Of a stretch of 64,000 nucleotides of DNA, positions 41,101 through 45,400 are shown in pieces. The position numbers were made by a program, and so were the translations under genes. Under the pieces are notes generated by a model that was not told the DNA's origin, made no database searches, and saw nothing but the letters and a program-made list of their open reading frames with translations. How positions within the stretch are numbered: the stretch's first letter is position 1; the number at the start of each line of letters is the position of its first letter. This DNA is from Dokdonella sp. (GTDB lineage Bacteria; Pseudomonadota; Gammaproteobacteria; Xanthomonadales; Rhodanobacteraceae). The DNA is taken from the NCBI GenBank assembly GCA_019634795.1, contig JAHCAR010000002.1:124001-188000 (forward strand). Direction: 5' to 3'.

Positions 41101-41450
41101 TCAACCAGCTGCGCGAGGAGGGTCACGCCAAGCGCGAGGCGATCATCCTCGCCGCCGAATCGCGCCTGCGTCCGATCGCGATGACCACGTTGGCGACCCT
41201 GCTCGGATTCCTGCCGCTGGCGATCGGTCTCGGCGAGGGCTCGGAAGTGCGCTCGCCGATGGCGATCACGGTTATCGGCGGTCTCGCCGTGTCGACCCTG
41301 CTGACCCTGGTGGTCATCCCTATCGTCTATGAACTGGTCGACCGCAAGCCCGATGCCTATTACGTCGAACGCGCGGCGCGCAAGGCGAGCAAGGTCGCGG
41401 GTGACGATGCGACGCCGGATTCGGCGGTTTTGGCCGAGGCGCACTCGTGA
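38127..41450 (+). CDS. RND efflux transporter permease, first subunit
   Basis: A 1107-residue inner-membrane proton-driven pump of the AcrB/MdtB (HAE1) type with twelve expected helices and two large periplasmic loops. The proton-relay residues are intact: TGMVVDDSIVVLENI in TM4 (Asp pair near 403-404) and GIVVKNAIVLIDRVNQ in TM10 (Lys near 983). An extra stretch at about residues 493-571, between TM6 and TM7, contains proline-rich and hydrophobic segments (LPRLIVVVVGFVAKLFNWTI), longer than usual. The start is a GTG overlapping the adaptor stop with GGAGG upstream. The substrate is unknown. Confidence 0.92.
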   Translation: MNIVDFATRRRVTIGMTTLTLVLFGLIALSGLKVNLLPDLSYPTLTVRTEYEGAAPIEIENLISQPVEEALGVVKNVRKIHSVSRTGQSDVILEFTWGTDMEQASLETRDKLDILSLPLEAKKPILLRFNPSTDPIIRLGLSGSGAAAGSSEAELKQLRRFADDELKKRLEPVAGVAAVKVGGGLEDEIDVSLDQQKLAQLNLRVSDVVDRLRNENVNVSAGRIEEGSQRYLVRTINQFSNLDQMREMLVKVENGVPVRLKDIADVRQGYKEREGIVRIDAHEAIELAVYKEGDGNTVAVANAVNKALEKLKSTLPPGASLTTIDDQSVFIQHSLDDVRNDALIGGTLAILMIFFFLGHGRSTFIISLSLPISLIATFFFMGQADLSLNVMSLGGLALATGMVVDDSIVVLENIARLREEGHSILDATVKGASEVSMAVTASTLTTVAVFFPLVFVEGVAGQLFRDQSLTITFAMLISLVVAMTLIPMMASLQGRSPLAFRDEPPKAPKPLPRNVLLRVPVRILRAIGEGLFQILPRLIVVVVGFVAKLFNWTIGAALRWIGRRVVGTYDRSARLYHRMLPGAMDRPWLVLGTAALAFAISIAIIPSLGMDLIPSLAQGRFETTIKLPPGTPLAETDALVTQIERQHARDPNIASIYGVAGTGTRLDATPTESGENIARLLVTLKPGSGDREEAAAMNALRATLATRSDAEVKFARPALFSFSTPLEIEIRGYDLDALTTAGKKLGTLLGESDRFADIKSTVEDGYPEVQIRFDQDRAAALGLTTRQISDAVVTKVRGEVATRYNFRDRKIDVLARVRESDRASVEDIRNLIVNPGADRPIRLSAVAEVTASEGPSEIHRVDQERVAIISANLRHGDLGSAVSEVRSILARTPLAAGVSVHIGGQGEEMDASTRSMLFAFGLAIFLVYLVMASQFESLVHPFVIMFSIPLALVGAVLALKLTGTPISVVVFIGLIMLAGIVVKNAIVLIDRVNQLREEGHAKREAIILAAESRLRPIAMTTLATLLGFLPLAIGLGEGSEVRSPMAITVIGGLAVSTLLTLVVIPIVYELVDRKPDAYYVERAARKASKVAGDDATPDSAVLAEAHS

Positions 41451-41475: not shown

Positions 41476-41532
41476 TGTAGGAGCGCCCCTTGGACTGGGC
41501 TCAGGACAGGCTTCAGGCGCGATGCTTTCGCG
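41476..41532. repeat. GTAGGAGCG...CGCGATGC REP-like unit, interrupted
   Basis: TGTAGGAGCG (41476-41485) and GCTTCAGGCGCGATGCTTTC (from 41510) are the two ends of a dispersed repeat I associate with Xanthomonadaceae. Here about 24 bp containing GGGCTCAGGACAGG lie between them, as if another repeat had inserted. Confidence 0.5.
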
Positions 41533-41556
41533 CAGGGTGCAACGTTTGAAATCGTC

Positions 41557-41609
41557 GTCCCGGCCCTTCGGCAGGCTCAGGACCGGCCGGACTCTGTCCG
41601 GGCCGGGAC
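41557..41609. repeat. CTTCGGCAGGCTCAGGA repeat within a 10-bp stem
   Basis: GTCCCGGCCC (41557-41566) and GGGCCGGGAC (41600-41609) form a perfect stem around CTTCGGCAGGCTCAGGACC, a dispersed motif type common in several proteobacteria. A related GCTCAGGACAGGC lies at 41499-41511. Confidence 0.5.
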
Positions 41610-41671
41610 CCAGCTCCTCGCTTCTTTCTAATCTGGACATCGCTTCGCGGCGCATTCTTGGTGCAAGGAGC

Positions 41672-42256
41672 AAGGCTTTCACTCGCCTTTGGCGAGCGAG
41701 TCACTTTTCTTTGCGTGCTCAAAGAAAAGTAACCAAAAGAAAGAGCACCCCGATGCAGCGGTCTCCGGGCATCCTGCCCTGCGACTTCGCGCAGCGGCTC
41801 CGGGGTTGGCTGACAGTCCATCCCTGGACTGGCAGCCAACTGGCTCGCATCCCTGCGAGCCACCCTTCGGGCCTTTTCTCCGCCACTGCGCCACTGCATA
41901 GGGGCCCCATTCACTGCGCATCCTGCGCAGCCAAGACGGAGCGGCTTACTGCACGCTCCAGTTTCGGCTTTGGCATTGGCTTTGCTCTTCGCTTTGGCGC
42001 GCAGGATGCGCGCTACAAGGGTCCCGTAAGCGGTGGCGGCAGGGCGCAGGAAAGGCCCGCAGGGTGGGCGCGAGGGATCGCGCCCAGTTCGCTGCCAGCA
42101 CACGGAGGTGCTGTCAGCGAACCCCCGGAGTCCTGCCGCGCAGTCGCAGGACAGGAGTCCGGAGACCACCGCTTTGGGGTGGCCTTCTCTTTGCCTACTT
42201 TTCTCTTGGCCACGCAAGAGAAAGTAGGTCGCTCGCCGAAGGCGAGTGAAAGCTTG
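41672..42256. repeat. 585-bp inverted repeat made of paired hairpin modules
   Basis: Two arms of about 290 bp run head to head with their centre at 41963-41965. Each arm carries the same series of small hairpins. Left: 41681-41696, 41703-41730, 41805-41840, 41842-41861, 41914-41930. Right: 41997-42013, 42066-42085, 42087-42122, 42195-42227 and an end stem near 42231-42247. Loops are conserved (TCC, TCCC read in module direction), while stems differ between arms by compensating pairs. No protein product is plausible. It separates two RND permease genes. The type is undescribed to me. Confidence 0.9.
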
Positions 42257-42290
42257 GCGGTGAATCCACTCTGGTTGCGCAACGACCACC

Positions 42291-42335
42291 CAAAGCGAAG
42301 TGACTCGCTCGCTCAAAGGCGAGTGAAGGCTTTGC
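42291..42335 (-). repeat. Solo third copy of the hairpin element's end
   Basis: Read on the minus strand, this segment (GCAAAGCCTTCACTCGCC, then GAGCGAGCGAGTCACTTCGC) matches the outer end of the inverted repeat at 41672-41706. It lies 35 bp beyond the right end and is not followed by the inner hairpins, so it is a truncated third copy. Confidence 0.7.
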
Positions 42336-42456
42336 ACTTTGAATACGTCGCGAATCGGGTTGGCGGTCCGGATCAGTCCAACCTTCGGTTGATGTCGCTC
42401 GCGCGTCAAACCGTTGTTCTCGCGAAACCGACAAGAAGAATTCCCGGAGTCCACCC

Positions 42457-45400
42457 ATGACCCTCGCCGAACTCAGCCTCAAGCGCCCGGTGACGGCGGT
42501 CATGTTCTTCGTCTCGATGACGGTGATCGGGCTGCTCGCGGCGTTTCGCCTGCCGCTCGAATACATGCCCGACATCCAGGCCCCGTTCCTGTTCATCGAC
42601 GTGCCGTATCCGGGCTCGACGCCGGCCGAGATCGAGCGGACCATCGCGCGTCCGATCGAAGAGGCGCTGTCCACGCTGACCGGCATCCAGTCGATGAATT
42701 CGAGTTCGCGTGCCGACGGTGCGCAGCTGTTCCTCGAGTTCAAGTGGGGGCAGGATGTTTCCTCGAAGGCGGTCGAGGCGCGCGACAAGATCGATGCGAT
42801 CCGCGCCGATCTGCCCGACGACCTGCAGCGCTTCTTCGTGTTCAAGTTCTCGACTTCGGACCAGCCGGTCCTGCAGTTGCGTATCTCGAGCGACGGCGAC
42901 CTTTCCAATTCCTACGAGCTGCTCGATCGCAAGCTCAAGCGTCCGCTCGAGCGCCTGCCGGGCGTGGCCAAGGTCACGATCCAGGGTGTGGCGCCGCCGG
43001 AAGTACAGATCGAACTGTCCTCGGATCGGCTGAGCGCGCACAACATCAACCTCAACGACCTGGCCAAGTCGCTGCGCGAGGCCAATTTCTCGACTTCGGC
43101 AGGATTGATCCACGACGGCGGCATGCGCTATCGCGTGCAACCGCAGGGCGAATGGCGGTCGCTGGACGAAATCCGCAATCTCGTCATCAACGATACCGGC
43201 CTGCGCCTCGGCGACGTCGCCGACGTCCAGCTGCGACCGGCGCGGCTCGACTACCAGCGTCGCCTCGACCAGCGACCGGCGGTCGCCATCGACATCAGTC
43301 GCGAGCGCAGCGCCAACCTGGTCGAGGTCGGCCGGGTCGTGCTGGCCGAGGTGGCGCGGGCGTCGAAGGAGCCGGAACTGAAGGGCCTGACCCTCTATTT
43401 CCTGCAGAACCAGGCCAAGGGCGTCACCGATTCGCTGCGCGAACTCGGCAAGGCCGGCATCGAGGGCACGGTGCTTTCGGTCCTCGTGCTGTTCTTCTTC
43501 CTGCGCGACTGGCGCGCCACGGCGATGGTGTCGCTGGCCATTCCGATCTGCTTCGTGATCACCCTGGGCTGCATGTACTTCTTCGGCATCAGTCTCAATA
43601 TCCTCTCGATGATGGGCCTGCTGCTGGCCGTCGGCATGCTCGTCGACAACGCCGTGGTCGCGGTCGAGAGCATCTACCAGTATCGCGAGCGCTACCCGGA
43701 CAAGCCCTGGTACAGCGCCGTGGAAGGCACGCGTGCGGTCGGTACGGCGATCACGGCCGGAACCCTGACCAGCATCATCGTGTTCCTGCCGAACGTATTC
43801 GGCGAACGCACGCCGATCGCGATCTACCTGACCCAGGTGGCGATATCGATGGCGATCGCGCACATCGCGTCGTGGCTGGTCGCGGTCAGCCTGATTCCGA
43901 TGCTCGCCGCCAAGCTGCCGCCGCCGAAGTTCATCGGCCGCGAGAATGCGGTCACGCGCCTGCAGCATCGCTATGGACGCCTCGTCGACTGGTCGCTGCG
44001 CAATCGCGGCAAGACCATGCTCGGCCTGCTCTGCCTTCTGCTGCTGAGCTTCGTGCCGATGTCGCAGACCAAGTCCGACATGTTCCCGGCTGGCGACACC
44101 CGTGAAATGCAGTTGCGCTACGAGCTCAACGGCAACTACCGCCTGCCGCAGCTCGAGCAGTCGGTCAGCAAGGTCGAGCAGTACCTGACCGAGCACAAGA
44201 AGGAATTCGAGATACGCAACATCTACAGCTATTTCGATGAGCGCGGCAATGCGCAGACCAATATCCTGCTGACCGAAGACGACGATGCGATTCGCCCGGC
44301 CAGCGAGATCATCGACGACATCCGCAAGGGCCTGCCGAAGCTGGCCATCGGGTCGGTCAGTTTCGACCGCAATGGCGGCAGCAACAACAACGGCATCAAG
44401 CTGTCCCTGGTCGGTGATTCGACCGACGTCCTGCGCGATCAGTCGGCTACCGTGATCGCCGTGCTCAGTCGCGTCCCGGGGCTGCACGACGTGCGCCTGG
44501 TCGAGAACTCGGAGGAGCGCGAAATCGCCGTGCACATCGACCGCGAACGTGCCCGCTACTACGGGTTCAGTGCGGCGGACGTCGCTCAATACGTCTCGAT
44601 CGCGCTGCGCGGTGCGCAGCTCAAGGACTTCCGCCGCGGTGATACGCAGATCCCGACCTGGGTGCGCTTCCAGAATGCCGATGCGCAAAGCATCAACGAC
44701 ATGTCCGACTACAAGCTGCGCGCGCCGGATGGCAGCCAGATTCCGCTGATGGCGATGGTCGACGTGCGCACCCAGGGCGCGGCCTCGACGATCCAGCGCG
44801 AGAACCGCCAGACCTCGTTGCAGATCCAGACCAACCTGGACAGTGACACGACGTCCGACGAGGCGCGCAAGCGCATCGAGACGGCGATGGCCAACGTGTC
44901 GCTGCCGGCGGGCTACCGCTGGACCTTCGGCACCTCGTTCCGTGATGCCGACGAAACCGGCCAGCGCATGATGTTCAACATCATCATCGCCCTGGTCCTG
45001 GTCTACGTGGTCATGTGCGCGATGTTCGAGTCACTGATCTACCCGGCCGCGATCATGACCACCTTCATCTTCTCGGTGTTCGGCGTTTTTTGGCTGTTCT
45101 GGATCACCGGTACCACGTTCTCGTTCATGGCGATGATCGGCATACTGATATTGATGGGCGTGGTCGTGAACAACGGCATCGTCATGCTCATGCACATCAA
45201 CCAGCTCAGGCACGAGGGCCTGCTGCGGACCGAAGCGCTGGTGCGTGGCAGCAAGGACCGCCTGCGACCGGTGCTGATGACCATGGGTACGGCGATCCTG
45301 GCCATGGTGCCGCTGTGCATCGGCACCGTGCAGGTCGGTGGCGATGGCCCCCCTTACTTCCCGATGGCGCGCGCAATCGTCGGCGGCCTGATGTTCTCGA

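Follow-up and report, generated by a model that had tools for sequence, protein, structure and literature searches.

The window, a stretch of 64,000 nucleotides from Dokdonella sp., contains two co-directional genes, named by eye as RND efflux genes, one with its stop at 41450 and the next with its start at 42457. Between them lie two mirrored modules of about 260 bases, A at 41675-41935 on the plus strand and B at 41992-42254 on the minus strand, which scored 236.6 and 211.0 bits respectively in nhmmer with the family profile. The 56 bases that separate them (41936-41991) vary among copies. A preliminary description of this DNA had reported two arms mirroring each other about 41963-41965, and this was borne out, with A and B symmetric about 41964.5. 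Read outward from the centre, the GGA-loop strand is the minus strand for A and the plus strand for B, the latter running toward the RND gene at 42457. A protein-coding element was rejected, as five ORFs spanning it had no Pfam match up to an E-value of 1.

In module direction the parts follow in the order P1, pseudoknot (S1, then the loop-to-downstream stem S2), multibranch domain and P8. The multibranch domain is closed by a CCCC../..GGGG stem and contains P3 together with stem P4, which encloses P5, P6 and P7. In module A (plus strand) the outer hairpin P1 occupies 41677-41701, the pseudoknot 41705-41748, the multibranch domain 41748-41904 (closing strands 41748-41759 and 41893-41904; P4 41789-41797 / 41882-41891) and the inner hairpin P8 41914-41930. 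Within the domain lie P3 (41760-41786), P5 with its conserved A-G mismatch (41805-41840), P6 (41841-41862) and the small hairpin P7 (41863-41871); P3, P5, P6 and P8 have TCC loops, which read GGA on the outward strand. In module B (minus strand) P8 lies at 41997-42013, the multibranch domain at 42023-42179 (P3 42142-42167; P5 42087-42122; P6 42065-42086; P7 42056-42064; P4 42132-42139 / 42036-42044), the pseudoknot at 42179-42223 and P1 at 42227-42251. In A, P1 was placed by alignment covariation and mapped positions, P3, P5 and P6 by loop counts and covariation, P7 by covariation and P8 by its loop count; in B, the multibranch domain was placed by covariation, and P8 and P1 by mapped position. 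An additional degenerate P1 outer end lies past module B (42285-42341, minus strand), found in the repeat listing and as an nhmmer match.

On the other side, the element adjoins a repeat at 41477-41530 of the window, GTAGGAGCGCC...TTCAGGCGCGATGC, which was seen by eye, which we take to be REP-like and which is apparently split by an insert. Matches to this stretch also adjoin several other element copies.

The hairpin pairs described previously are all present. Those of P8 and P5 have the two compensated pairs and the retained A-G mismatch, respectively, that had been noted, and the P6 pair has five compensated pairs, not four, between GGCTCGCA and GGGCGCGA. The closing stem, P3, the multibranch stem P4, the pseudoknot with its third strand and the shared loop motif go beyond that description.

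Covariation was measured in an alignment of 65 non-redundant, diverse modules. The consensus fold has 61 pairs, 52 of them with double changes. With four pseudoknot pairs added, double changes occurred in 55 of 65 pairs, compared with 43.2 when shuffled and no more than 33 when slid. Double-change cells numbered 962 (299 shuffled, at most 172 slid) and 94.2% of cells were paired (71.3% shuffled, at most 46.1% slid), while the count of further pair types was no higher than in shuffles (127 vs 124.5). The preliminary description had inferred selection for a folded single strand and proposed a covariation test; with double changes far above both controls, the alignment supports this very strongly.

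The pseudoknot and its third strand

In module A, S1 pairs 41705-41713 with 41720-41728 and S2 pairs 41715-41719 with 41744-41748, and the candidate third strand lies at 41735-41743. The corresponding parts of module B are 42215-42223 with 42200-42208 (S1), 42209-42213 with 42179-42183 (S2) and 42184-42192 (third strand). Stem covariation and third-strand tests define the structure. S2 of at least 5 nt was found in 50 of 65 modules (17.8 when dealt anew among sequences, maximum 28) and in 17 of 29 distant modules (4.3, maximum 9). The signature was absent from 323 kb of other sequence (a total over both strands).

S1 and S2 are separated by a purine strand that mirrors the 3' strand of S1. Exact mirrors were seen in 57 of the 65 modules (mean 19.7 and maximum 28 when dealt anew) and in 24 of 29 distant modules (10.4, maximum 16; 30 were given, one of them without S1), counts in which the stem's leading C, assigned to the flanking A-C/G-T pairs, was dropped post hoc, after the null count. 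With the leading C kept, exact mirrors fell to 7 of 65 (mean 3.8, maximum 7) and to 0 of 29 in the distant set, and a third-strand count over stems including the flanking pairs gave no signal. In the 53 modules whose stems are asymmetric, a mirror was the better fit in 48 and a direct repeat in 2, with 3 ties.

Two tests are independent of the leading-C choice. The column triples 39-61-76, 40-59-77, 41-58-78, 42-57-79 and 43-56-80 alternate in concert between T-A and C-G types, with 95-100% agreement. Third-strand double-change cells numbered 104, compared with 39.8 shuffled and 50 at best slid, in a column test that counted four pairs only and in which two of five measures, double-change pairs (4 vs 3.4) and types (7 vs 8), were not above shuffles. 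The complementary strand is an H-type pseudoknot in which the pyrimidine loop and the stem's purine strand run parallel, and stem and third strand vary together in the manner of base triples, as in a triple-helix H-type pseudoknot. From these sequence patterns, the third strand probably pairs with S1 as a triple-helix pseudoknot. As a separate observation, an insert of roughly 65 bases, GC-rich and related among copies, is found in the pseudoknot of several modules (L022, L024, L025 and L305), in its linker or its loop.

Copies, paired modules and occupied sites

The host genome has 30 matches to arm A, which resolve into ten loci, the window's among them, plus one short fragment; at one of these loci a B arm stands by itself, and two others are incomplete. 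The whole element was matched in 34 of 60 related genomes, host included. With about nine further host loci and this spread among relatives, the alternative of a purely local inverted duplication, raised in the preliminary description, is refuted. The covariance model R1 matched in at least 64 of 398 genomes of the phylum and at least 44 of 212 genera, both lower bounds as R1 was built from capped modules and five candidates were scored per genome. Within the host's class these matches extend over numerous families; beyond it, a single family gave only weak ones. In a plasmid collection we found matches in 7 Burkholderia records, 2 Pseudoalteromonas records and an Aeromonas record of chromosome size. 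An origin from phage, E. coli or viral contigs was rejected, as none of these gave a match (blastn; one exact pattern for one of these). Papers listed for CsrA, repeats and pseudoknots, most of them covered without full text, included no description of this element, and the pseudoknot sequence terms did not occur in the literature searched.

A set of 75 loci held 119 full-length modules, and 33 of these loci had one full-length module only. Adjacent full-length pairs faced each other in 41 of 44 cases, with 2 in the same direction and 1 divergent, in a non-random sample of loci taken from the best matches and with an IS-split pair counted as facing. Distant loci with two modules were facing in 14 of 16 cases, and those in genomes without csrA in 6 of 7 (by eye, weak partial matches left out). 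Among the 38 facing pairs with other copies in the same genome, both partners were closer to modules elsewhere than to each other in 36 (a tree was also made). This makes A and B two lineages maintained as a hetero-pair.

The window's site was informative in 8 of 10 Dokdonella genomes. It is occupied in four (G000, G002, G003 and G004) and is a shorter, module-free spacer in four others (G005, G007, G008 and G009). G002, in which a contig break divides the site, has the modules in reverse order, B then A, and G004 has a single module. Gene-like ORFs flanking 21 loci were co-directional at 11, convergent at 7 and divergent at 3. The element also lies between a second tandem RND gene pair in at least five Dokdonella genomes (G000 C6, G001 C3, G006 C1, G007 C29 and G008 C55), so one insertion may be ancient and retained. 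At the G003 site orthologous to that of the window (L303, about 400-730), at least nine units of 33 bases, arrayed in tandem, lead into the module. Each unit contains a P1 hairpin, so P1 alone can multiply. In another copy (G000 C1:304516-306450; L019, about 1390-2640) the inter-module spacer carries an IS3-like insert with a CTC duplication, seen by eye. Judged by eye from its sequence and ORFs, this looks like an ordinary IS3-type element, and it was rejected as an autonomous version of the repeat.

GGA loops, TwoAYGGAY and csrA

TCC loops are found in P3 (46/63), P5 (63/65), P6 (59/65) and P8 (37/45), and in 12 of 65 P1 hairpins. The commonest shared form is CA-TCC(N)-TG, so that the outward strand has CA(N)GGATG, a motif resembling CsrA/RsmA sites. 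Outward reading (A on minus, B on plus) thus gives four (N)GGA-capped hairpins per module, in line with the several GGA hairpins of Csr/Rsm sRNAs. The window reached no Rfam family at gathering; its best match, to RsmW and on the strand of module B that carries the GGA loops, was non-significant (25.5 bits, E 0.048, gathering 52). Clan CL00106 holds RsmW, RsmY and TwoAYGGAY.

TwoAYGGAY is Rfam family RF01731 (Weinberg 2010, PMC2864571), for which CsrA binding has been predicted (PMC4333381). It is characterised by two adjacent (AY)GGA(Y)-type hairpins on one strand, which P5 and P6 provide in outward reading. One Pseudoalteromonas module scored 70.9 bits with R1 and, on the opposite strand, 65.1 bits with RF01731 (gathering 43). 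RF01731 matches to modules were above gathering in Pseudoalteromonas and just below it in Aeromonas; the relatives L234, L235 and L209 reach the cut-off, and at L233, L234 and L235 the two models matched opposite strands wherever both matched. The window itself had no RF01731 match at gathering (43 bits), nor was RF01731 among the matches listed at E<=10 for 41500-42400, from which an overlapping match with a lower score, belonging to the same clan, had been dropped. None was found among the 6 of 155 candidates scored in the host genome, or at E 1e-3 in ten genomes of the host's order with six candidates scored each. Of 30 loci with an RF01731 match, 8 had a strict pseudoknot beside it (the arm being just five Ts in three of these), and 5 more had a shorter one visible by eye. 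At 5 of the 30 the signature lay upstream on the other strand, in the place expected for a facing partner. The element looks like a much larger relative of TwoAYGGAY, a homology shown through the relatives that both models match.

A csrA gene (PF02599) was detected in 220 of 398 genomes, including the host, and all 34 genomes with RF01731 are among them. By contrast, 19 of 64 R1 carriers had no PF02599 match (17 listed as 100% complete, two incomplete and with weak R1 matches), and CsrA as a universal explanation was rejected. Of 37 carriers entered in a test of the caps, 35 were scored. Canonical caps, of a form NTCC(N)T fixed post hoc after a looser definition, were found in 32 of 59 pseudoknot copies from 22 genomes with csrA and in 0 of 42 from 13 genomes without it, with 0 in a reversed-cap control. 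By genome this is 15/22 vs 0/13 (Fisher p 6e-5, which ignores shared ancestry) and by family, more weakly, 6/10 vs 0/5 (p 0.044). Under the looser definition a TCC hairpin was present in 35 of 60 copies with csrA and 10 of 55 without. As 7 of the 22 csrA genomes had no caps, csrA is insufficient for them. The pseudoknot is kept in both sets of genomes and thus persists without CsrA, which cannot explain this core. CsrA binding by the outward strand is the best-supported function that sequence comparison suggests for the inner domain.

Interpretation and comparison with known systems

With moderate confidence, we read the element as a non-autonomous repeat dispersed between genes. Its arms would be RNAs read outward, bearing hairpins that bind CsrA in genomes that have this protein and, close to the 3' end, a triple-helix pseudoknot. 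The directly supported parts of this reading are the covarying pairing, the pseudoknot and third-strand covariation, the pair architecture, the occupied and empty sites, and the TwoAYGGAY homology through relatives. The element would be a facing pair of two related, distinct modules, each a structured RNA when read outward from the centre, presumably the functional strand. Such an RNA would comprise, in order, up to four (N)GGA hairpins in or beside the multibranch domain, the H-type pseudoknot and a last hairpin. In the pseudoknot, the pyrimidine loop would follow the major groove of the pyrimidine-purine stem and form with it a triple helix of U.A-U / C+.G-C type. A transcript crossing from either side would show one module outward, so the pair may work in both orientations. 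The GGA hairpins may bind CsrA/RsmA dimers, the repeats acting as scattered CsrA-binding sites or sponges, and the triple-helix pseudoknot and P1 might protect the RNA against 3' decay.

The composition of the stems bears on whether RNA or DNA is folded. Of 3766 cells, 1.0% were G.U in module orientation and 1.8% A.C, equivalent to outward-strand G.U, figures that omit two near-constant G.T columns (4.2% module G.U with them included). RNase P from the same genome set had 14.7% G.U (26 sequences, in a folded alignment of only 27 pairs). A neutral hairpin scan gave a smaller contrast, with GT 0.9% and AC 1.9-2.1% in modules compared with 2.0-2.8% and 1.1-1.5% in RNase P. Such scarce G-U pairs are odd for RNA and leave room for a constraint at the DNA level. 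An outward-strand bias by position was non-significant (17 vs 9 positions, p 0.17). Consensus scans at the element found no promoter-like sites of sigma-70 type and 1 terminator-like site, compared with 1.2 by chance.

It is unlikely that the module is instead selected as single-stranded DNA, a transposable unit whose hairpins and outer-end pseudoknot are recognised by an enzyme as in REPINs or IS200/IS605, with loops as protein contacts. Local hairpins do contain 11 GT and 34 AC pairs vs 3454 Watson-Crick pairs, as expected if both strands or DNA pair, and the hetero-pairs, with 36 of 38 having both partners closer to modules at other loci, and the occupied and empty orthologous sites are also in keeping with it. 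However, the only enzyme family searched, PF01797, does not track the module, the caps go with csrA, and the third-strand topology and the RF01731 match suit RNA better. A RAYT requirement was rejected: 8 of 34 module-bearing genomes had no PF01797 match at E 1e-3, near-complete genomes with many module matches among them, and the 1.5-kb flanks of both RAYT-like genes of the host had no module matches. Separately, a relative without module matches (G025, C1) has 18 PF01797 matches, most with identical or near-identical score, probably a recently spread IS200-like family.

The preliminary description had offered a non-coding RNA family or a non-autonomous element, with a linked transposase or RAYT as the thing to look for. 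The RNA family is favoured because of the outward-strand homology to RF01731, the restriction of canonical caps to csrA genomes among those scored and an outward pseudoknot topology compatible with a triple helix. A non-autonomous repeat is also supported, by the hetero-pairs and the occupied and empty orthologous sites, but the RAYT link is not.

We think it improbable that both apply in the form of a mobile DNA repeat with outer P1-pseudoknot ends for propagation and an inner domain that is optional CsrA-binding RNA cargo; genomes without csrA do keep the pseudoknot and facing loci (6 of 7 with two modules) while lacking canonical caps, but no propagation enzyme was found in the family searched, PF01797. 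Very improbable is perfection of the hairpins by template-switch (quasipalindrome) correction during replication, rather than functional selection, since despite the scarcity of one-sided intermediates, stems enclosing about 100 bases or more (P4, the outer stem) also covary, simple hairpin correction cannot yield a pseudoknot with a parallel third strand, and the loops are conserved.

Returning to the outward-reading RNA repeat, we tentatively suggest a broader possibility: a class-wide mobile intergenic family with a universal triple-helix pseudoknot core and an optional CsrA-binding domain only in lineages with CsrA. These would be selfish repeats that feed, and maybe buffer, a global post-transcriptional regulator, with an inverted hetero-pair that works either way. 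New here are the third-strand pseudoknot, the A/B hetero-pairs at a site empty in sister species and the four outward GGA caps per module. The analysis ties an orphan, little-known Rfam family to a far larger structured repeat across many gammaproteobacterial families, supplies an evolutionary test of the CsrA role proposed for TwoAYGGAY and offers a candidate triple-helix pseudoknot from bacteria that comes with natural sequence variation. Should the repeats indeed bind CsrA, models of Csr/Rsm in such genomes would need to include the scattered copies, which amount to tens of matches in some of them.

Among known systems, TwoAYGGAY is similar in that a common stem carries two neighbouring hairpins whose loops are of the CA(N)GGATG type. 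The module differs in its length of about 260 bases, four capped hairpins, third-strand pseudoknot, outer hairpin, facing pairs and many copies. The sponge RNAs CsrB, RsmY, RsmZ and RsmW likewise repeat GGA in hairpin loops. They are single-locus sRNA genes with promoter and terminator, whereas the element occurs as an intergenic pair in many copies, and no promoter was recognised in it. REPINs, which are mobilised by RAYT, are intergenic inverted pairs of palindromic units. The element shares the intergenic inverted pairs but is much larger, forms hetero-pairs with a pseudoknot and occurs without PF01797 in 8 of 34 carriers. MITEs have terminal inverted repeats for a known transposase and target-site duplications; here the arms are inverted and some orthologous sites are empty. 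U.A-U and C+.G-C triples with the geometry proposed for the pseudoknot occur in telomerase RNA. Major-groove triple-helix pseudoknots of that type share the H-type fold and a pyrimidine loop that runs parallel to the stem's purine strand, whereas the present case is a bacterial repeat in which the triple is inferred from covariation alone.
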